From: Chthonomonadia bacterium
GTDB taxonomy: Bacteria; Armatimonadota; HRBIN16
Length of the DNA: 52,722 nt
Assembly: GCA_013314755.1 (NCBI GenBank)
Contig: JABUFA010000024.1
Location: forward strand, 1-52,722
Reading direction: 5' to 3'
Within the stretch, counting starts at the first letter, position 1. Each line of letters begins with the position of its first letter. Shown here in pieces: positions 10,997-21,689 of the stretch. A program made the position numbers and the translations under genes. The notes below the pieces were generated by a model. It was not told the origin of the DNA, did not search any database, and saw only the letters and a program-made list of their open reading frames with translations.

Positions 10997-11023
10997 GGAG
11001 ACACTGCCACCGGCAGTATCTCC
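10997..11023 (-). terminator. Terminator of the nine-gene operon
   Basis: GGAGACACTGCC (10997-11008) pairs with GGCAGTATCTCC (11012-11023): 11 pairs with one internal C-A mismatch and a three-base loop. It lies 38 bases past the LolD-like stop codon. On the minus strand it is followed by a T-rich stretch (CTTTGTTTGTGT), which suits termination of the long operon. Confidence 0.6.
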
Positions 11024-11060: not shown

Positions 11061-11834
11061 TTAGCCGGGAGTACCTTCCACGTCGCCAACGCGCACTTCG
11101 ACGGCAGCACGCTCCTCCACGCGGTCAATGCGTCCGTCGCGAATCCACACGATGCGGTCGGACACGTCCACCATCTTGAGGTCGTGCGTTGCGGAGATGA
11201 TAGTCACTCCCTGCTCCTTGTTCAGCTGTCGCAGGAGTTCAATAATCTCCTTGCCCGTGCGCAGGTCCAGGTTACCCGTTGGCTCGTCCGCAAGGATGAT
11301 TTGCGGGTTGTTCGCCAGCGCTCGAGCAATCGCCACGCGCTGCTGCTGTCCACCCGATAGCTCGTTCGGTTTGTGGTGCAGACGCTCGCCAAGCCCTACC
11401 AGTTTCAGCAGTTCGATGCCGCGGTCGATGGCTTCATCGGTAGACAAGCCACCGAAAATCATCGGTAGCATTACGTTCTCCAGCGCGGTCATCACGGGGA
11501 TGAGGTTGAACGTCTGGAAGATATAGCCGATGGTGCGACAGCGCAGGAACGCCAGCTCCTGCGCATCCAGCTGCGCCATATCCACATCGTTGATGAACAC
11601 CGAACCGCTGGTAGGCTTGTCCAGCCCACCAATCATGTTAAACAGAGTGGATTTCCCGGACCCCGAAGGCCCCATGATGGAGAGATACTCTCCCCGTACG
11701 ATGTCCAGGGTCACCCCGTTGAGTGCACGCACCACCTGCGTGCCCATCATGTACTCTTTCACCACATCCTTGCACCGCACGATGTACTCGGTGCCTGTGG
11801 CGCTGGTTTGATTTGTCTGTGGCTGAACCGCCAT
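11061..11834 (-). CDS. LolD/MacB-type ABC transporter ATPase
   Basis: The 257-residue protein is a complete ABC ATPase: Walker A GPSGSGKST, Q-loop FQTFNLIP, signature LSGGQQQRVAIARALANNP, Walker B IILADEP and switch His in SATHD. The sequence between Q-loop and signature matches the LolD/FtsE/MacB class, which drives FtsX-fold permeases rather than classic importers. It is the last gene of the operon, 15 bases after the small FtsX permease. It probably powers that permease, the FtsX half of the giant fusion (16999-21630), or both; no other ATPase is encoded in the operon. Confidence 0.93.
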   Translation of the reverse strand: MAVQPQTNQTSATGTEYIVRCKDVVKEYMMGTQVVRALNGVTLDIVRGEYLSIMGPSGSGKSTLFNMIGGLDKPTSGSVFINDVDMAQLDAQELAFLRCRTIGYIFQTFNLIPVMTALENVMLPMIFGGLSTDEAIDRGIELLKLVGLGERLHHKPNELSGGQQQRVAIARALANNPQIILADEPTGNLDLRTGKEIIELLRQLNKEQGVTIISATHDLKMVDVSDRIVWIRDGRIDRVEERAAVEVRVGDVEGTPG

Positions 11835-11849
11835 AGATGCACCCCCTTG

Positions 11850-12458
11850 TTAGACCTCGACGCGCAGGGCAGCTGCTGCAGGCATCCGCGCCGCTACCTG
11901 CGCAGGGATAATGGTTGCAATCACCGATAACAATGTACCGATGACGATGGAAAGGATGAGGTACAGGAATATCTCGCCAAGAGAAATCCAGCCGAACACC
12001 TTGAACCCATCACTGAAAAGCTTGATGAGTACTACCGCAAACACTCCCAGAAACCACCCGATGACCGACGCAATCAACCCCACCAGGGCAGACTCGATGA
12101 AGAACAGCTCCACGATGAAGATATCGTATGCCCCCAGACACTTCATCGTGCCTATCTCCTTGTAGCGCTCGGTCACCGACATCAGCATAGCGTTCGTGAT
12201 GCCTACCAGGCACACCAGCAGGCTCATAATCACCAGCCACGTCATGCGGTAACGCTCGGAGGGGTCGGTAATTGCTCCTGAGTTGCGCTGAATCATCATT
12301 GCCGTCAGCACTGACACCAGGAACGCGATGCCCAGAACAGTGCCCGCCGCGGTAATCACCGACCGCCAGAAGCGGATGCGCACACTCTGCATGCTGATGT
12401 GGAATGCTACCCGGAACGGCAATTGCAAGCGTTCCACCTGACGCCCGTCTTTTCTCAT
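11850..12458 (-). CDS. Minimal FtsX-type ABC permease
   Basis: The 202-residue protein shows the FtsX/MacB fold in reduced form. One membrane segment (about 33-53) is followed by only about 15 residues instead of the usual 150-250-residue periplasmic domain. Three more segments come next, with the signature stretch VTERYKEIGTMKCLGA after segment 2. The C-terminus ends in IIPAQVAARMPAAAALRVEV, the usual coupling tail. ATG 12458 overlaps the stop of the PqqD-like gene (ATGA), so the two are translationally coupled. It would need the LolD-like ATPase encoded immediately downstream; loss of the periplasmic domain suggests that another protein supplies the external part. Confidence 0.85.
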   Translation of the reverse strand: MRKDGRQVERLQLPFRVAFHISMQSVRIRFWRSVITAAGTVLGIAFLVSVLTAMMIQRNSGAITDPSERYRMTWLVIMSLLVCLVGITNAMLMSVTERYKEIGTMKCLGAYDIFIVELFFIESALVGLIASVIGWFLGVFAVVLIKLFSDGFKVFGWISLGEIFLYLILSIVIGTLLSVIATIIPAQVAARMPAAAALRVEV

Positions 12459-12871
12459 CCCTTCTTCTTTCCTCCCCGTTTGAACGCGACCAATCTGCGA
12501 TCTGCCAGCATCTTCAGGAACATGCTTACCGATGCTTCCACCTCGCGACGGCTCATGCGCGTGTGTTTGCACATCTGCTGAACGATGGAGCCTACGGTAT
12601 GCTCGCCGTCACACAGCTCCCATACTATCGCCCCTACTTCATCCAGCTGAATCTGGCGCACCGGCGGCAGACGAAACGCCGCTATCGCCCAGCGGATGAC
12701 CAGACTGCGCTGTTCCACCGGCACCTTCAGCACCATCTCGCCTGTCTCTGTCCGCTCCCACTCTACCAGCGGATTGCGCACCGGTATCGCAGTCAACGCT
12801 TCCTGCCGCGATAGCACCGGCTTCGGCTTTACCGCCGGGATGTATCTGCCAACGAACTCTCGCAAACCCAT
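12455..12871 (-). CDS. PqqD-like protein
   Basis: The 138-residue protein contains a PqqD-type winged-helix domain at about residues 70-130 (RQIQLDEVGAIVWELCDGEHTV, then a helix ending in FLKMLADRRLVAFKRG). PqqD domains bind precursor peptides in ribosomal peptide modification or act as general adaptors. An N-terminal extension (1-65) is unusual for stand-alone PqqD. No radical SAM enzyme or precursor peptide gene is adjacent, so its usual partner is missing. It overlaps the FtsX-like gene by 4 bases and follows the unknown gene by 9 bases. Confidence 0.75.
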   Translation of the reverse strand: MGLREFVGRYIPAVKPKPVLSRQEALTAIPVRNPLVEWERTETGEMVLKVPVEQRSLVIRWAIAAFRLPPVRQIQLDEVGAIVWELCDGEHTVGSIVQQMCKHTRMSRREVEASVSMFLKMLADRRLVAFKRGGKKKG

Positions 12872-12880
12872 CTCAGGATG

Positions 12881-13783
12881 TCAGTGGCACTGCACTGTGT
12901 CCACAATCTGCTGCAACAGTTCAGGGCTACCCCGCTCCACTCGCACCGAGTAGATGCGGTTACCGGGCTCACAGTACCACACCAGTCCCTGTATCTCATC
13001 CGGTCGGCGCAGGAGCAGGCGCTCCACCTTCCGCCTCAGCCATACCGCCGGCGCACGCCGCACCCCGTTGAGTACAAGCGCGGGATGCGCTTTCACTTCT
13101 CCCGGAGTGTGCCGCGGTTTCACGCGCTTCCATTCCGTCCCATGCAGTGCCCACTCTTCCAGCGGCCATCGCTTCAGAGTGACATCGGCAAGCCCCCACC
13201 GCTCAACGCCCACCTCAGTGTAGCCGCGGCGAAACTGCAGGCCCAGATAGCCCGACATCACCTGCGACCTGACCAGAGTAAACTGCTGTGGCAGCCGGAC
13301 CACCAGCCCCAGCAATGCCCACGTCCACCAGCCATCATCCGAGTGGTCTCTCAGCGTGTCCAGAATCTGGTGGGATACGTTCACCACCGCATCATCAGTG
13401 TCGCCGCTGACCTGCGCAATGACCACCCGTCGGCATTCCGGGCACTGCCGGATAATCCCGCGCACCTTGCGGTCCGCGCGATAGGTAAACTCCAGACCTC
13501 CCGCCTCGTGTTCCGAAGGCTTAATCCGTCCGGTAAAGGTAACTTTGCGCTTCTTCGCCTGGCGCTCCACCATATTCAGGTAATCGTCAAGGCGCTTGCG
13601 AATGTTGACCTGTTTCCTCGCCTGCGCCCACCGCACCTCGGCGATTAGCGAGCCGGGCGAATCGACACGCAAATACCCCTCCTTTGCATCGCCCTGAAAT
13701 CCGGTAACGCTCCAGTCGGGAGGTACCACCAGGCTGACCCCTTGCCAACCGACTATCTGCTCCGGCGCCAGCCCTTGTTTCAC
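12881..13783 (-). CDS. Unknown protein of the export-like operon
   Basis: I do not recognise a family for this 300-residue protein. It has no signal peptide or clear membrane segment. The N-terminal half looks like a beta-rich domain that opens with GWQGVSLVVPPDWSVTGFQG. It carries a CPECRR motif at about residue 114-119 and a Trp-rich stretch (DDGWWTWALLGLVVRLPQQF) near 150-168. The second half repeats a similar opening (LRRGYTEVGVERWGLADV), so it may be two related domains. The start is GTG at 13783 with an AAAGGG about 11 bases upstream. It lies 24 bases after tatA and 9 bases before the PqqD-like gene. Confidence 0.6.
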   Translation of the reverse strand: MKQGLAPEQIVGWQGVSLVVPPDWSVTGFQGDAKEGYLRVDSPGSLIAEVRWAQARKQVNIRKRLDDYLNMVERQAKKRKVTFTGRIKPSEHEAGGLEFTYRADRKVRGIIRQCPECRRVVIAQVSGDTDDAVVNVSHQILDTLRDHSDDGWWTWALLGLVVRLPQQFTLVRSQVMSGYLGLQFRRGYTEVGVERWGLADVTLKRWPLEEWALHGTEWKRVKPRHTPGEVKAHPALVLNGVRRAPAVWLRRKVERLLLRRPDEIQGLVWYCEPGNRIYSVRVERGSPELLQQIVDTVQCH

Positions 13784-13807: not shown

Positions 13808-14023
13808 TTACTGCTGTTCGGCGCTCTTCTCGGTTTTCGCCGGGGCAGGCGGCGCAGGTTCCTCGTCCAGCACCTCAGAGGTGGCTTTCTTGAACTCGCG
13901 CAGGCTCTCGCCTACGGAACGTGCCAGCTCCGGCAGTCGGCGTGCCCCGAACAGCACCACGATGATGACGATTATCGGTAACGCTTCCTGCCATCCGAAA
14001 TACATCTGGATTACCTCACTCAT
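13808..14023 (-). CDS. tatA: Twin-arginine translocase subunit TatA/E
   Basis: The 71-residue protein has one N-terminal membrane helix (about 13-26), the FGARRLPELARSVGESLREFKKA amphipathic helix with the conserved F-G and L-P hinge, and an acidic, Pro/Ala-rich tail; this is the TatA/TatE layout. TatA forms the pore of the Tat pathway for folded proteins. No TatC or TatB is encoded in the window. It lies 48 bases after the OPT-like gene and 24 bases before the unknown gene. Confidence 0.9.
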   Translation of the reverse strand: MSEVIQMYFGWQEALPIIVIIVVLFGARRLPELARSVGESLREFKKATSEVLDEEPAPPAPAKTEKSAEQQ

Positions 14024-14071: not shown

Positions 14072-16072
14072 TCAGTAAGGTAAATACGACACCGAGCGCG
14101 CGATGATGGCAAGCGCAATGGCCGCCATACCGATAAGCCCCATGCCGCAGGAGAAACCTGCCAGCAACACCGGCGCCCACATGCGCCACTGCTCCTTGCC
14201 GAACCGACGCGCAAAGTAACGGTGTCCCAGAAACGTGCCCAACAGCATCGGAATCGTGTTATGGGGAAGCGCACCGATGCCTCCCACAAACCCGTAGTAG
14301 AACAGCAGAGGCAGTTTCAGCAGGGAGAAGATGCCGAACAGCACCAGACCTCCGGTGAAGCCCCCGATGATGTAGTCGGTACGCAACGCCCGCAGCAGCC
14401 ACTGCCCGGTCTCGCTTCCCTTCAGGTTAATCTGCTGCCACAGCGCGTTCATCTGCGCGTGCAGGGGCCAGAACTTCTGCGCGTACGGATACTGCGCAGA
14501 GGGAATCTGGCTGGTGTGCCAGAAGAACGCCCAGAACAGGAAGCTGGCAATCAGCACCACCGGAAGCATGAACGCCTCGGCGTACAGGATGCTGGTGAAG
14601 CGAGTGCCAGTGAGCTCGACCTCGCGGAAGCGCTGAGCCGCCCAGCCATGGTCCGCCAGGGGCATCGGCGCATACCAGATGTCCACCTTATCGTAGCCGG
14701 TCTTAAGGATGGTTGCTTCGCGCAGGTAGGGGAAGCTCACACCCTGTCCGGTCAACGCAATCATACGCGCCGAGATGTAAGAGTTAATCGGCGTCCACAC
14801 CAGCCCGAAGAAGATGAATATCCACAGCGGGAAACCGGGCACGAGCTGATGGGCAACCACGATGACGCCGACAGTAGCCAGTAGCCATGCGCCAAGGGCG
14901 ATATACACCGTGTTTGCCTTATCGCCACGCCCCACCGGAATCTGGGAGAGCGTCACCCGCGAGCTGGCACGCTCTTTGCGCAGGGCAAGCACCCGAATCA
15001 CCGCCACGATACCGATAAACGCCACCGCCAGCTGCACACCGATACCCACGCTCAGCCAGAAGTTCATGTCCACCGTCAGCTTCGTCTGGATGGTGCTCAT
15101 GCCCGGATACCAGTCGGGAAGCAAGCCCATCCTTTGCAGAATCGGGTTGGTGAACACCTGGCACAGGATACTGGCGGTCGCGCTACCGATAACAATCGGC
15201 GCGGGAATAACGAAACCAGCCAACACCAGTCCCAGGTCGCCCGACAAACCGGTCAGCGCCGCAGGCAGAATGTGCTCCGTGTTGGGCACAAGGTCGAAGA
15301 AGGGTATCGGGATGAGCATGAAGGCTCTACCAAACAGCACGCTGGTAAAGATGGGCACCGCCAGATAGAACACGCCGTAAACCAGCCCGATTACCGCACC
15401 GGTGGAGAATACACGCCAGCGCCATGATTCCTCTTTGCGTCCAGCCTCCGCCAGCGCAGTTGCACCCGATGCCGCCACCGGAGCCATCGGGAAGGGCAGA
15501 CGCTCGACGTCGTTGGTGATGCGGAACAGGGTATATCCCAGCCCCATCCACATCATGCGCCCAAAAATCTCGTTCATCACCAACAGCAAAATCGGTATCA
15601 GCCAGTCCCGATGGAAGAAGGTACGATGCAATATCGCAGGGCTATCGGGCGCGGGAACCGCCCAGCGTGGTATCTGATCGGCTATCGGCGCGGCGGGAGG
15701 CGACTGGATGAAATACTGGTTCCATATCAGCCAGCCAAAAGGACCGCCTGACAGACCGATACCACCCGACATCAGCACGGTCAATGAAGACGCCACGTAA
15801 AACAGGATGTAAATCTCCTGCTTTTTCAGGGGCGCGAACGAGCGGCGGGCAACCTCCGCAAACAGCACAATGGTCACCCATTGCGCAGCAGGACCCAAAC
15901 CCTGTCCGGCAACCAGCCCCAGATACAACGCGCCGGGCAACATAATGAAGGCGATGAACAGGGTTCCAACCGCCGTACGAACGGTAAACCCCTCTTCAAA
16001 ACGTTGCCCCGCCTCTACCGATTGTGTTTCCGCGGTTTCGCGTGCTAAGGCGATTTCATCCCGTATTGCCAA
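14072..16072 (-). CDS. OPT-like multi-pass membrane protein (DUF6784/DUF6785 type)
   Basis: The 666-residue protein has about 14 hydrophobic segments, with features of the oligopeptide transporter (OPT) superfamily: an N-terminal GTLFIAFIMLPGALYLGLVAG segment, an internal NEIFGRMMWMGLGY stretch, and paired glycine-rich segments near the C-terminus (GGFTGGLVLFGIFSLLKLP). OPT proteins carry peptides or metal chelates by proton symport; the substrate here is unknown. The start is TTG at 16072 with AGGAGGG 9 bases upstream. Its position between the DUF2752 gene and tatA in a permease-rich operon hints that it is a structural partner rather than an independent transporter. Confidence 0.7.
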   Translation of the reverse strand: MAIRDEIALARETAETQSVEAGQRFEEGFTVRTAVGTLFIAFIMLPGALYLGLVAGQGLGPAAQWVTIVLFAEVARRSFAPLKKQEIYILFYVASSLTVLMSGGIGLSGGPFGWLIWNQYFIQSPPAAPIADQIPRWAVPAPDSPAILHRTFFHRDWLIPILLLVMNEIFGRMMWMGLGYTLFRITNDVERLPFPMAPVAASGATALAEAGRKEESWRWRVFSTGAVIGLVYGVFYLAVPIFTSVLFGRAFMLIPIPFFDLVPNTEHILPAALTGLSGDLGLVLAGFVIPAPIVIGSATASILCQVFTNPILQRMGLLPDWYPGMSTIQTKLTVDMNFWLSVGIGVQLAVAFIGIVAVIRVLALRKERASSRVTLSQIPVGRGDKANTVYIALGAWLLATVGVIVVAHQLVPGFPLWIFIFFGLVWTPINSYISARMIALTGQGVSFPYLREATILKTGYDKVDIWYAPMPLADHGWAAQRFREVELTGTRFTSILYAEAFMLPVVLIASFLFWAFFWHTSQIPSAQYPYAQKFWPLHAQMNALWQQINLKGSETGQWLLRALRTDYIIGGFTGGLVLFGIFSLLKLPLLFYYGFVGGIGALPHNTIPMLLGTFLGHRYFARRFGKEQWRMWAPVLLAGFSCGMGLIGMAAIALAIIARSVSYLPY

Positions 16073-16099: not shown

Positions 16100-16471
16100 C
16101 TATCGTATCCACTCGCCAATGCGCCACACCAGCGATGTAGCGACCACTACCAGAAAAGCCTGCAGGCTGAGCCTGCGCCAGCGTTCCGCCTGCGCGTGAA
16201 CGGGCAGAACGAAATATGTCCACAGCAAACCCACCAGCGCCGCCCAAAACGGCACTGCCAGCGGATGGTAGCGCCATGCCTTCGTCCACTCGCCGTGCGC
16301 CAGGGCACAGGTCGCCCGCGTCATGCCACAGGTTGGGCATGGTTTACCCGACACAATGCGAAAGGTACACACGGTCGGCGCACGCTCCACATACGGTTGG
16401 AGAACATACGCTGACCCCCACACCAAACTCACGGTCAATATCAGCAATAGCGCCCGCCACACAGATTTCAA
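16100..16471 (-). CDS. DUF2752 membrane protein
   Basis: The 123-residue protein has three hydrophobic segments and the family signature CPTCGMTRATCALAHGEWTKAWRYHPLA (the paired Cys, GMTRA, and HPLA after a helix); this is a small three-helix membrane family of unknown role. The start is TTG at 16471, 2 bases after the stop of the GYF protein, so expression is coupled. It lies 27 bases before the OPT-like gene. Confidence 0.85.
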   Translation of the reverse strand: MKSVWRALLLILTVSLVWGSAYVLQPYVERAPTVCTFRIVSGKPCPTCGMTRATCALAHGEWTKAWRYHPLAVPFWAALVGLLWTYFVLPVHAQAERWRRLSLQAFLVVVATSLVWRIGEWIR

Positions 16472-16473
16472 GT

Positions 16474-16959
16474 CTAGTATGGTGAGGACATGGCTGCGAT
16501 AACCAGCACCACAACGACATAAAGCACAGCCAGCCCTAGCAGCACCATACCGATAATCCCTAAAATGTATCCCGCCTGCGCCAGCCCTCGCCCTTCTACC
16601 GGGGACAGTCCCCGATTAATCCGGTCCAATTCCTGCTTACCGACGATATACGCCGGAATGCTCAGCAATCCGCAGCACAGCAAGCTAAGTATGCCTAGTA
16701 CCAGCGCAGTCGTTGCCTGACTGCTTGGACCACCGCCTGCCATCGGCACCGGAGGCGCCTGAGTTGGCGGTGGAGCTGCTCCCTGTGGGAACAGGTGGCT
16801 CAGCTCCGGCAGTAGGCTTGCCCGAATCTGCGTGCCGGTGAACTCATCCTCCAGCGTGGTATTGGGCGCAATGCGCCCTTCTCGTACCCATTGCTGGAGC
16901 GTGGCAATGTCCGCAGGACCATAGCGATTGCCGTCGTGTGCAATCACGTAGTACCCCAA
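16474..16959 (-). CDS. GYF-like and DUF4190 membrane protein
   Basis: The 161-residue protein starts with a GYF_2-type domain (residues 1-58: YYVIAHDGNRYGPADIATL, VREGRIAPNTTL), a cytoplasmic protein-binding module. A Pro/Gly-rich linker (60-80) and a DUF4190-like pair of membrane segments (about 83-110 and 127-155) follow. The start is TTG at 16959, preceded by GGGAGGG. It is second in the operon, 39 bases after the giant fusion gene, and may recruit a proline-rich partner at the inner membrane. Confidence 0.8.
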   Translation of the reverse strand: MGYYVIAHDGNRYGPADIATLQQWVREGRIAPNTTLEDEFTGTQIRASLLPELSHLFPQGAAPPPTQAPPVPMAGGGPSSQATTALVLGILSLLCCGLLSIPAYIVGKQELDRINRGLSPVEGRGLAQAGYILGIIGMVLLGLAVLYVVVVLVIAAMSSPY

Positions 16960-16998: not shown

Positions 16999-19900
16999 TT
17001 ATGCACCTGTTGCCGGTTGCGTGCTGGGCACGCCCGCGGGCTGTCTTCCATCCGTTTTCTGCAGGTAGCGCTCGCGCTCCTCCTGGCGCAGGGTTCGCCA
17101 TATCAGGAACTGCTTGCGCAATGTATTCAGGAAACGGCGGTTCACACGCTTCCAGTTCGCGATGTCCCCGCTGAGGCGTGTCAGCGTCAGGTGCAGGTCG
17201 TACACATCGGGCATATCCGTCGGCGTGGCTTCAATCTCCACGTTCTGGCTGACGCCCAGGTCAAACGGTGCCACCCATGCCGTGCAGGTAATGCGATAGG
17301 CGGTGCCTCCATCGTGCTCGTACTCTTCCGCCTTCACTCCCTGCGTCACGAAGTCGCCGATGGAGTACTCTTCGTATGCCTGCAACCACTCGCTCAGGAA
17401 CGAGTTCAATCCCGCTGCTTGCGCGCGCGTCACCGAGAAGGGCATGGGGATTCGCCACACGTCGCCGTCCGGCTCGGGCACGCGCCAGGTACGCTCCAGA
17501 GCAGGTGTTGCCACCTCGGAGGCTTTACGCGCCGGGTAGATGGTGGAACCGAGCACCGTTGCCACCACGATGAGCGTGGACACTACCGCCGCCATCGAGG
17601 AGAAGTTCAGATACAGTCCGGGCACGTTTAGCCAAACGATTAGCTTCGCGCTCAGCTGACCCAGGAAGTAGCCCGTCACCGAGCCGATGATGGCGTACAC
17701 CATCGCCTCGGCGAGGAACAGCAAGCCGATATGCGTGGGCGACAGCCCCAGAGAGGAGAAGATATGTATCTCCTTCACGCGCTCGTACACACTGCTCAGC
17801 ATCGTCTGAAGTACGATGAGCGCGGCGATTAGCACCGGGATTACGATGAACTCAATGCCCCGTCCCGACGTCGCCGCGAGGGTGGAGTATCGCCATGTGC
17901 GGTCTCCCTGCCCTGCATAGATGTTCAAGCCTAGGCGCGGCATCAGCTTGTCCAGCACCACTCGCACCTCTTCGGGTGTGGCAAAGGAGATGGCGATACT
18001 GCGAATCTCCCCGCCGAGGTTCATCAGCGTCTTGTACGGGATGTAGAAGCAGGCGTCTGGCTCCAGGTGCACATATTCGCGGAAGCCCGCCTCGCCTGCC
18101 CCGGCGCCCTGCCTCTGCATCTTCTGCATCAGGATGAAGTCCACCGGCGTCAGTGGCTCGCGGTCCAGGTCGGTAATCTGCTTGAACTTCTGGCTGTCCA
18201 GAATGCCGATGACCGTGTAGTCCACACCGCTGAAGTTTACCTTCGCCTTGCCCACATCTTCCGGCTCCACGCGCAGTTGCTGGGCGATGGCGGTGGGAAG
18301 CACGGTGACGTAACGGTCGCCTTCGCGGAACCATCGCCCCGCAATCAGCGCCTTCTGCGGCTGGGTGACCTGCGCTTCCGCCGGCGACAGCCCTACCAGC
18401 GCTTTGGCATCGTACTGGCGGTCGCCTCGCCGCAGGCTGAGGAACGACTGTTCACCGAACGCCGCGCCGAAGAACCACGCTCGAGGCGCCACCGCCCGGT
18501 CACGGAACTCATCGTGCAGGAGGCGATATGCGGGTTCCTGCAGAGGCTCCCACAACGCGGTACGAATCATGATGCCGTTATACAGCGGCGTACCGGGCGC
18601 GGGAACCTTGTTGAAGCGCAGGACGTTCACGATGGAGGTGAACGACAGCACGATGAACGTGAGCAGAATCAGCGTGATGCTGGTCAGCGCGGTACGGGCT
18701 TTGCGCCGCCGCATGTTCGACACGCCCAGGTTGAAGGCGGCAAACGCCACACTCACGCGCCCGATGTCCGCCCGGTGTACTCCGCTGATCTGGCGGTTCA
18801 ACTGCTTGAGCTGCTCCTCAAACTTGCCCGCCACCATAAAGGTAACCAGCAGGGACAGCGCCAGCATGATGAACGCCAGCAGAACCACAAACAGGTTGCT
18901 GACCAGCTGGAACGCGGGGTGAATCTGGCTGAAGGCGAAGAATATCAGCAGGAAGATGACGAATGCCGTCAGCAGCTGGCGCTTGAGGTCGCTGAAGCCG
19001 AACAGCAACCGCTCCATGAAGTAGGCGAACGGCATCAGCAGAAACATGTAGAAGATGACACCGCGCACCACATCGTTTGCGGTTGCCTGCACATCGGGAT
19101 AGGCGCGCGCTTCGTAGCCCCATGCGGCACGCGCGTAGGTGTCGAAGGTAGCGTAATCCTTGCGTTCCAGCGCCTCTCGCGCCTTGTCCAGATGCTCCTT
19201 CGCCAGCCCGTGTAACTGCTCCAGACCTTCGTTGATGATTCGGAACCGGCGCAAGCGGCTCATACGCCATTCGTCAAGATTCCACATATCCTCCGCCACA
19301 CGCAGGGCGGTATTGGCGATGGTTCCACCACGCGCAATCAGGTCGCGCTCGGTCAGCTCGCGCTCCGAGAAGGTGCGCACCACAAAGCCCTGCGCCTCTT
19401 CTGCGCTTCCCGCCACCAGGTAACCTTCGCCTTCCGGCTTCTGAGGTGTGGAGTTAATCAGCAGGAAGCGCGTTGCGCCCGGACCCACGCCCATCATCAG
19501 CTTGATTCGAGAACCGGGCTGAGCAAACACCACCGCCACGTCCTCCACATAGGAGGTCAGCGAGTAGTCCTGCACCGTCGCCAGCGCGTAGCCGTACATG
19601 CGCGGCTGTCCGTTGGTCTCGCCGTCCAGCACGTCCATCGTGGTGAGCGCACGAAGCGCCTGCTGGTCTACCAGGTCATAGATGGAGGTAGGCACGCAGC
19701 GGAACACCACGATGCGCGTGGTCTTGCGACCGGTGGACATGGTGAAATCGATAGCGTATTCGCTGGCGCCGGTCACGCCCAGGTCAGGCGCGTATTCTAT
19801 CTCGCCGGTCTGCTCGTTGAGTCGGTACGCGGCGATGTTGGTCATCTTGTTCCAGCCGTAAGCGGTGATGGGTGGAATGCCCGGGAAGCGGAAATAAGCA

Positions 19901-21630
19901 TCCTCGCCCACCTTTTGAATCATGTTGCCGCGCACGCCCATGAAGGTCTTGGTGGCATGGCGCACCACCGCTAAGGAATTGGGCACCGGCTGGTTGGGAA
20001 TAAAGCTTCTGCGCGGGTCAAACAGCACCACCTGCCCGTCCAGCGTACCGAAGCCCCCCTGCAAGCCCATGGTCTGGAAGTTTCCGGGCTCGGAGATGGG
20101 GAAGCGCGGCACGTTCAGCTCGCCGGGCGCATTAGTATCGTTCAGGATGTGGTACAGCAGACAGGCGATAAGCTTCGTCTGGCGCGTGACGTTGGCGATG
20201 TTTACCTTTTCAGGTGTGTCGAAGGGCGTGTCGACCAGCGCGCGCGAGTCGTCGGTGGTGCAGAAGGTCATGCCGTTCGCGCCCGACAGGGTGACCACCT
20301 CGGCGTCAAACGCGAACTTGCCGGGGAGGTAGTTGCGCCAGTTTTTGCCCTCCACCGGGTTCACGCCGTCCGCAAACGCCTTTTTATGGTCGAATCCCAG
20401 AATATATCCGACCTTCTCCGCGTTCTCGCGGCAGATGCGCGCTGTATCCGAGAAGCGGTTCTGCACGTCCTCGCGCATGTCGTAGAAGTAGCCTTTGTAG
20501 AACAGCCCCACCTGCCGCGACTTGCTGGAGAGGTCTAAGGAAAGGAACAGGTAGATGTCCAGCAGCTTCTTCTGTTTGGGCTTGATGCCCACCGCGCCGA
20601 TAAGCGAGTTCACCAGCCGCTGTCCGACGTTCGGTCGCTCCAGTTCAAACATGTGCCGGTCCATCCACTCTCGCACGCCCTGCAGAGAGAGGAAGTGTGC
20701 GCTGGTGGCGAGGAACATGATGGTGCGTTTGGGCGGATTTGCCTTGTAGGCGCGGGCTACCTCCAGCAAGCCGGCGATGCCACAGGCACTCTCCGCGCCC
20801 GGAGCCAGCGCGGGTACCGCCGACATCGCATCGTAGTAAGCCGAGATGACGATAATCTGGTTCTTGAACTTCGGATCAGTGCCCTCTAACCAGCCGATGA
20901 TGTTCTTCGCCGGGCGACGCTCCCAGGGCATGTTGCAGAACAGCGTTCCCTTGATTTCGCGCTGTTGCGCCGTGAGCGCAAGTAGTGGTGCCGCATCGCT
21001 CTTGCGGATGTAGAAGCGCGGAACGGTGACGGGAATGCCGATGAACTTCGACTCCGCCTCGCCGCGCATGGTCGCGCTGGGTTCGATGAAGATGACCGCC
21101 TTCGCGCCAAGTCGGGGGGCGTTCAGCCAGTCGGTGCCACAGTTGAAGTCTACCAGTACGATACTGCCCTCCACGTTTTTGCCGCTGAAGTTGGGCAGTT
21201 TGCCGTCGCCAGCGTAGATAATCGGTCCGGTGATGCCTTCTGGAGGCAGCTGGGAGGTGCGCACCAGGTTGGGCCACATGGCGTACAGCGGAAACTCTCG
21301 CCCGCCAACGCGCAGTTTCGCTCCTTTGTCTATCGGAACCGTGACCGTGAACTCTTCGGTGGTCACGCGCTGCAGCCCGATTTCACGGAACTGCTGTTCC
21401 ACCCACTGCGCAGCGGCGTCGGCGCCCGGATAACCAGCCACCCTGGAGGGATAGGAGGAAAGCTGATACACCGATTGGCGAATGCGTTCAGGAGAGACGG
21501 CTCTCGCCAGACGTCTGTAAGCATCCGCCACCTCCGGCGCCACCGAGGGCTGGCTCCATGCCAACCCGGTGAAAATGCCCATGCAGATTGCGAGCACCCA
21601 CGCCCGCATGAAACGCACCGTCATGTTCAT
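16999..21630 (-). CDS. Giant M28-like pseudo-peptidase fused to an FtsX-type permease
   Basis: The 1543-residue protein starts with a signal/anchor segment (about 10-27). A PA-like insert (about 135-245) and an M28 aminopeptidase-like fold (about 45-330) follow, then a long beta-rich region (540-760). Three membrane segments lie at about 856-935. A MacB/FtsX-type permease (980-1380) has four more segments and a 250-residue external domain, and the C-terminal cytoplasmic part (1380-1530) is of unknown fold. In the M28 part the metal His is Tyr (AYYD), the D-N pair is E-S (GAESACG) and the catalytic Glu pair is replaced (TSAHF), so it is unlikely to cleave peptides. ATG 21630 is chosen because GGAG lies 6 bases upstream. 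Confidence 0.85.
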   Translation of the reverse strand: MNMTVRFMRAWVLAICMGIFTGLAWSQPSVAPEVADAYRRLARAVSPERIRQSVYQLSSYPSRVAGYPGADAAAQWVEQQFREIGLQRVTTEEFTVTVPIDKGAKLRVGGREFPLYAMWPNLVRTSQLPPEGITGPIIYAGDGKLPNFSGKNVEGSIVLVDFNCGTDWLNAPRLGAKAVIFIEPSATMRGEAESKFIGIPVTVPRFYIRKSDAAPLLALTAQQREIKGTLFCNMPWERRPAKNIIGWLEGTDPKFKNQIIVISAYYDAMSAVPALAPGAESACGIAGLLEVARAYKANPPKRTIMFLATSAHFLSLQGVREWMDRHMFELERPNVGQRLVNSLIGAVGIKPKQKKLLDIYLFLSLDLSSKSRQVGLFYKGYFYDMREDVQNRFSDTARICRENAEKVGYILGFDHKKAFADGVNPVEGKNWRNYLPGKFAFDAEVVTLSGANGMTFCTTDDSRALVDTPFDTPEKVNIANVTRQTKLIACLLYHILNDTNAPGELNVPRFPISEPGNFQTMGLQGGFGTLDGQVVLFDPRRSFIPNQPVPNSLAVVRHATKTFMGVRGNMIQKVGEDAYFRFPGIPPITAYGWNKMTNIAAYRLNEQTGEIEYAPDLGVTGASEYAIDFTMSTGRKTTRIVVFRCVPTSIYDLVDQQALRALTTMDVLDGETNGQPRMYGYALATVQDYSLTSYVEDVAVVFAQPGSRIKLMMGVGPGATRFLLINSTPQKPEGEGYLVAGSAEEAQGFVVRTFSERELTERDLIARGGTIANTALRVAEDMWNLDEWRMSRLRRFRIINEGLEQLHGLAKEHLDKAREALERKDYATFDTYARAAWGYEARAYPDVQATANDVVRGVIFYMFLLMPFAYFMERLLFGFSDLKRQLLTAFVIFLLIFFAFSQIHPAFQLVSNLFVVLLAFIMLALSLLVTFMVAGKFEEQLKQLNRQISGVHRADIGRVSVAFAAFNLGVSNMRRRKARTALTSITLILLTFIVLSFTSIVNVLRFNKVPAPGTPLYNGIMIRTALWEPLQEPAYRLLHDEFRDRAVAPRAWFFGAAFGEQSFLSLRRGDRQYDAKALVGLSPAEAQVTQPQKALIAGRWFREGDRYVTVLPTAIAQQLRVEPEDVGKAKVNFSGVDYTVIGILDSQKFKQITDLDREPLTPVDFILMQKMQRQGAGAGEAGFREYVHLEPDACFYIPYKTLMNLGGEIRSIAISFATPEEVRVVLDKLMPRLGLNIYAGQGDRTWRYSTLAATSGRGIEFIVIPVLIAALIVLQTMLSSVYERVKEIHIFSSLGLSPTHIGLLFLAEAMVYAIIGSVTGYFLGQLSAKLIVWLNVPGLYLNFSSMAAVVSTLIVVATVLGSTIYPARKASEVATPALERTWRVPEPDGDVWRIPMPFSVTRAQAAGLNSFLSEWLQAYEEYSIGDFVTQGVKAEEYEHDGGTAYRITCTAWVAPFDLGVSQNVEIEATPTDMPDVYDLHLTLTRLSGDIANWKRVNRRFLNTLRKQFLIWRTLRQEERERYLQKTDGRQPAGVPSTQPATGA

Positions 21631-21659
21631 CACCTTCTCCGGCGTTGGTCGTTAATCCT

Positions 21660-21689
21660 ATGATAACATAACCCCAGAAGTGCTGTGAA
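21660..21689 (-). promoter_or_regulatory. Probable promoter of the nine-gene operon
   Basis: On the minus strand, TTCACA (21684-21689) and TATCAT (21660-21665) are separated by 18 bases; each differs from consensus at one base. Transcription would begin near 21653, about 23 bases before the chosen start. No other promoter of similar quality was seen at the operon's head. Confidence 0.55.

Follow-up and report, generated by a model that had tools for sequence, protein, structure and literature searches.

Two unlike permeases can make one transporter, as exemplified by LolCE; in the LolCDE system, two separate FtsX-type permeases are combined with a LolD-type ATPase. In MacAB-TolC the ATPase is fused to the permease, while in FtsEX-EnvC an FtsX homodimer devoid of any enzyme-fold fusion transmits mechanical movement to the periplasm, and the activator is a separate protein. 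Type VII ABC transporters, the class that includes MacB, LolCDE and FtsEX, pass an ATP-driven movement to the periplasmic side, and their function is set by partner proteins (PMC12646458, PMC5985334). YbbAP-TesA is a type VII machine with more than four TM helices, in which YbbP fuses two permease halves and the hydrolase-fold periplasmic component, TesA, is a separate active GDSL esterase (PMC12646458). The M28 fold occurs with a PA-domain insertion in BSAP/YwaD and related M28 aminopeptidases (6hc6, 2ek8), and is used outside peptide hydrolysis in nicastrin, nicalin and the transferrin receptor, all of them membrane proteins. In nicastrin, the M28-derived pocket was proposed to be a substrate receptor for protein N-termini (PMC2647162).

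A 52,722-nucleotide stretch of DNA from a Chthonomonadia bacterium (contig JABUFA010000024.1; the window) contains a gene in which an M28-like head is fused to an FtsX permease, here termed psiM28-FtsX; no paper describing such a system was found in the literature. The locus resembles LolCDE in its two separate FtsX-type permeases, its LolD-type ATPase and, by Foldseek, the same membrane fold. It differs in that a pseudo-M28 head, additional TM helices and a C-terminal domain are attached to one permease, the other is almost without a periplasmic loop, and an OPT-like partner is present; the LolCDE equivalog cut-offs are also missed (lolCE, 22.7 bits vs. 362; LolD, 244.5 vs. 307.75). Unlike in MacAB-TolC, the ATPase is a separate gene. 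With YbbAP-TesA the locus shares the type VII design, a periplasmic component of hydrolase fold and a number of TM helices above four, whereas the hydrolase fold here is that of M28, is fused to the permease and has its catalytic residues replaced. Compared with BSAP/YwaD, the fold and the PA insertion are the same but zinc ligands H97, E152 and H256 and the base E151 are replaced, and a permease is attached. Nicastrin, nicalin and the transferrin receptor are eukaryotic and lack an ABC permease, and their substitutions presumably evolved separately.

Architecture of psiM28-FtsX

The gene lies on the minus strand (16999-21633) as a single reading frame without interruption. Translation may start at an ATG at 21630 or an in-frame GTG at 21633; the ATG is favored because a ribosome-binding-like GGAG precedes it, so that 1543 aa (16999..21630) is the most likely length, although residues are numbered here from the GTG. 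From the N- to the C-terminus, the protein consists of a signal peptide (recognized by eye), an M28 fold with a PA-domain insertion, a beta/helical region, three additional TM helices, a complete MacB/FtsX permease and a cytoplasmic C-terminus; the beta/helical region and the C-terminus are unclassified. Pfam detected M28 at residues 244-326 (36.6 bits; cut-off 21.3), MacB_PCD at 981-1174 and FtsX at 1262-1372, the latter two also above cut-off. Full-length homologues across Armatimonadota have the same architecture, by which a single odd gene or chance is ruled out; together with the intact frame, its phylum-wide occurrence also rules out decay or a sequencing artefact. An Rfam search of the window gave no match.

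The head occupies residues 32-500 (20134..21540, minus strand). An AlphaFold (AF2) model of residues 32-860, with 59 homologues as input, reached pLDDT 92.8 and pTM 0.91, and its top Foldseek matches were the PA-domain-containing M28 aminopeptidases 2ek8 (5.8e-26) and BSAP 6hc6, with PaAP, TfR1 and GCPII among further matches. The M28 fold is therefore intact, as the original prediction held, but the domain extends to about residue 500 instead of spanning 40-340. Alignment of the head with an active M28 from the same genome by hhalign gave a probability of 99.5; a viral structure library contained no match below 0.001.

Residues 501-860 (19054..20133, minus strand) are predicted to form a beta-rich and then helical extracytoplasmic region, for which no convincing match to Pfam or PDB sequences was found at residues 515-775, and a plasmid search found no relative of residues 480-980. 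Three extra TM helices (residues 855-939; 18817..19071, minus strand), seen by hydropathy and as helices in the model, are followed by the permease (about residues 961-1384; 17482..18753, minus strand), comprising TM4, the periplasmic core domain and TM5-7. Hydropathy places the helices at about 855-873, 882-911, 904-939, 978-1008, 1255-1283, 1301-1322 and 1339-1368, i.e., three plus four, with about 246 residues (1009-1254) between permease TM1 and TM2, in agreement with the three added segments and the roughly 250-residue external part of a full permease read earlier from the sequence. A type VII permease is marked by an FtsX domain and by a 4-TM unit whose TM1 and TM2 flank a large periplasmic domain, and both features are found here. 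Seven TM helices and a signal peptide are thus consistent with a topology in which the M28 and middle regions are extracytoplasmic, the three added helices return the chain inside and the 4-TM FtsX unit comes next. The model of residues 480-1530 is weaker (pLDDT 82); its best Foldseek matches are MacB, a Streptococcus MacB-like permease, LolC/E, YtrF, the heme exporter HrtB and YbbAP, and 5xu1 is among the structures matched by the permease. The C-terminal domain (residues 1385-1535; 17029..17481, minus strand), cytoplasmic according to the predicted topology, is conserved (mean column identity 49%) and had no convincing match among Pfam and PDB sequences. Weak matches to START/SRPBCC- and Bet v1-like folds suggest that this module, on the same side as the ATPase, binds a hydrophobic ligand or has a regulatory role.

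Substitution of the zinc and catalytic site

Three strings, AYYD, GAESACG and TSAHF, had been taken as evidence of lost metal and catalytic residues, and all three are present at the respective motif positions (SAYYDAM at 264-270, PGAESACG at 278-285 and TSAHF at 310-314; the motifs lie within 20683..20838, minus strand). The hhalign comparison with the active M28 of the same genome pairs H97 with Y266, D117 with E281 (after a one-residue deletion just before E281), E152 with F314, D179 with D367 and H256 with D468, so the two-zinc ligand set is broken; the catalytic Glu, E151, becomes H313. PDB profile alignments agree with this assignment for the N-terminal motifs, in which D268 is kept. The C-terminal portion of the site, from D367 through D468 and D472 (20218..20535, minus strand), was located by family alignment, hhalign and homologue counts.

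Among 100 homologous frames, positions 266 and 468 were never His, position 313 was never Glu and position 314 never an acid, while an acid at 281 and D367 were found in all 100. H313 was present in all 71 members of the non-redundant subset (below 90% identity), and D468 is a near-invariant Asp. The loss thus holds for H97, E151, E152 and H256, replaced in every homologue, which makes canonical di-zinc aminopeptidase chemistry very unlikely as judged from these alignments. It does not extend to all five zinc and catalytic positions: one ligand is kept (D179), one is conservatively replaced (D117), and at two positions an invariant His and a near-invariant Asp have taken over; another metal or chemistry is therefore possible. 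As for a genuine zinc site elsewhere in the chain, which might have kept the domain active, the family alignment of the domain contains no spare canonical HxD/GEE/HTP set.

In the 71 sequences, mean identity is 0.92 over seven pocket positions, D268 included, vs. 0.56 over the whole domain (permutation p 2.5e-5, 200,000 random draws). A pocket so much more conserved than its domain was therefore re-specified and not left to decay. Across the family the canonical site is lost and the replacement pocket is held fixed in the aligned homologues. Other invariants, D422, W432, E445, R464 and D472, sit in the C-terminal part of the M28 domain, and N425 is also invariant in the family alignment. The stand-alone M28s inspected in the same phylum retain AHxD/GADDxxSG/GEE-type motifs whereas the fusions lack them, a divergent fragment in G189 being the one exception, and no intermediates between active M28 and the fusion were seen among the M28s inspected in Armatimonadota genomes. 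One genome (G007) has several psiM28 paralogues (L148, L155, L160, L161), with canonical zinc motifs in none. In another (G189, family f20), a very divergent 626-aa frame (L151) matches part of the M28 region only and reads TFADA where AYYD was sought; head and permease may be split in that lineage, or the contig may be cut.

Operon and neighboring genes

From 21630 to 11061, the minus strand encodes psiM28-FtsX, DUF4190/GYF_2, DUF2752, an OPT-like protein, a TatA-like protein, a 300-aa protein, a PqqD-like protein, a minimal FtsX and a LolD-like ATPase. A promoter-like site just upstream (TTCACA-18-TATCAT with TG before the -10; 21660..21689, minus strand) and a terminator-like hairpin of 12 pairs just 3' of the ATPase gene (10997..11023, minus strand) match the consensus; the total number of such promoter-like sites does not exceed that in shuffles, and hairpins are not enriched over shuffles. 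The order psiM28-FtsX, OPT-like, 300-aa, PqqD, FtsX and ATPase on one strand recurs across many families of Armatimonadota. In five loci (L078, L082-L085), the order is FtsX, ATPase, psiM28-FtsX and OPT-like, so the same four genes stay together, and in several lineages psiM28-FtsX is unlinked from the other operon genes within the stretch viewed.

The ATPase (11061..11834, minus strand) is of the LolD/MacB type, its top named match being LolD (244.5 bits, 8.3e-73). Its linkage is kept in both gene orders, so the genes predict it to be the cognate MacB/LolD-class ATPase of psiM28-FtsX. The minimal FtsX (11850..12572, minus strand; Pfam FtsX 1.9e-18), with a short loop and an uncertain start codon, is proposed to be the second half of the permease dimer. 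The 300-aa protein (12881..13783, minus strand), with an apparently duplicated motif and no Pfam match, and the PqqD-like protein (12455..12871, minus strand; Pfam PqqD 2.8e-13) are neighbors in one of the two arrangements. Among the neighboring proteins scanned, none matched an adaptor family, such as that of MacA.

The OPT-like protein (14072..16072, minus strand) is a polytopic membrane protein of 666 aa. It has no Pfam match itself, and a sequence search found no relative with a solved structure; one of 33 scanned relatives matches OPT at 1.5e-5, and a direct OPT search brought two operon members (G008, G208) over the curated cut-off. OPT-like is therefore a lead and not an assignment. Such a partner lends modest support to a peptide ligand for the head, as had been suggested.

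Several features vary among loci. The DUF4190/GYF_2 and DUF2752 genes (16100-16959, minus strand) and the TatA-like gene (13808-14023, minus strand) are inserts seen, among the homologous loci viewed, in the window's genus only. The PqqD-like protein, a stand-alone member of a peptide-chaperone family, accompanies the ABC genes in the main arrangement and is absent near the rearranged loci. In lineages with a dispersed operon (L087, L088, L090-L093, L095), psiM28-FtsX is preceded on its own strand by a gene for another membrane protein of about 700 aa, which is immediately adjacent in most of these loci and lies 1.3 kb away in L087.

Distribution and co-inheritance

About 198 of 291 Armatimonadota genomes, or two thirds, carry psiM28-FtsX at E <= 1e-20; the 288 genomes with any match include FtsX-only and M28-only matches and do not give its frequency. 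Close copies with 94-96% identity occur in Armatimonadetes and HRbin16 records. So far it has been seen here in Armatimonadota only, the search outside consisting of an insensitive short-pattern scan and the plasmid search.

The OPT-like gene, present in 196 of the 291 genomes, shares its presence or absence with psiM28-FtsX in 277 (190 with both, 87 with neither, 14 discordant). The small FtsX, usually one copy at E <= 1e-35, is present in 190 and agrees in 275 (186 both, 89 neither, 16 discordant); all three genes occur in 181 genomes and none in 86. These counts treat genomes as independent, without correction for phylogeny, and incomplete genomes are counted in. Within group f16, psiM28-FtsX and the OPT-like gene are concordant in 84 of 85 genomes, though unlinked in the loci viewed; such repeated joint presence and absence makes a shared function of the two likely. 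About three quarters of the f16 genomes (G074-G158) lack all three genes, amounting to a natural gain/loss experiment.

Proposed mechanism and alternatives

The reading that we tentatively prefer, at a little less than an even chance, is that psiM28-FtsX is the large permease subunit of an uncharacterized type VII ABC system built on a permease heterodimer, in which the pseudo-peptidase head captures a peptide-like ligand in the periplasm and cooperates with the OPT-like protein. In the predicted complex, the large and small FtsX proteins would pair on an ATPase dimer, and the head would recognize a peptide-like ligand, a role proposed for nicastrin, which shares this fold. Binding and hydrolysis of ATP would then shift the TM helices together with the periplasmic core domain by mechanotransmission, upon which the ligand could be released or handed to the OPT-like protein, or the OPT-like protein gated. 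The original prediction made the head a sensor driving the permease, a less usual direction, since in the type VII systems characterized, force travels outward from the ATPase (PMC12646458, PMC5985334). A further-reaching version is rather unlikely: the machine would represent a new type VII class, with a former peptidase as capture head and ATP-driven mechanotransmission feeding or gating an OPT-type transporter, so that an ABC motor energizes peptide (or peptidoglycan-peptide) uptake via a second, separate membrane protein.

A somewhat unlikely alternative is that the M28-like domain serves mainly for structure or assembly, in the manner of transferrin receptor ectodomains, by positioning the complex or binding to a partner protein, while the old pocket holds no small ligand. 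There are known inactive M28 folds with other functions, the Foldseek matches include TfR1, and invariant W120, R190, R206 and W237 fall outside the old active site. A purely structural use, however, does not require pocket conservation far above that of the rest of the domain; of the two roles first suggested, ligand binding fits this extreme conservation of the substituted pocket and a structural one does not call for it.

Quite unlikely is a Lol-like machine for lipoprotein sorting or membrane extraction, in which the two permeases would take the parts of LolC and LolE with a LolD-like ATPase, and an exposed lipoprotein N-terminus or lipids would be recognized by the head. The ATPase's best named match, the two-permease layout and the fold matches to LolCDE and to the lipid-hydrolase system YbbAP speak for it, but the LolC/E and LolD models are both matched below cut-off, the OPT-like partner is foreign to Lol, and a gene missing from about a third of the sampled genomes is therefore not an essential Lol.

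An active hydrolase with changed chemistry, using one metal or none, with H313 as base or ligand and E/D281, D367 and D468 as a carboxylate set, is likewise improbable. The His at the catalytic-Glu position is invariant, and the AAP structure 2anp, reported to be an E151H mutant that keeps some activity, has His in the same column of the aligned sequence; the retained D179, the acid at D117 and the Asp at H256 would supply possible ligands. Each zinc, however, lacks at least one canonical ligand (H97 to Tyr; E152 to Phe). Pseudoenzymes are common, but an ordinary FtsX-permease fusion with a decayed peptidase of no specific role is hardly credible, being contradicted by the re-specified and conserved pocket, by conservation over most families of the phylum and by near-strict co-inheritance.

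Significance

Beyond what was first read from the gene, the replacement of H256 by Asp, the ATPase, the second permease and the co-inherited partner have been added. Few type VII ABC systems are understood, and what each of them does depends on its partners; the one described here, with a pseudo-peptidase head built into the permease chain and a transporter-like protein inherited alongside, occurs in about two thirds of the Armatimonadota sampled. Like nicastrin, but in bacteria, the head is an M28 fold that has probably become a receptor, and its replacement pocket is conserved enough for a mutational test. In conclusion, the head fused to a permease and its co-inheritance with the OPT-like protein and the small permease point to an uncharacterized envelope machine.
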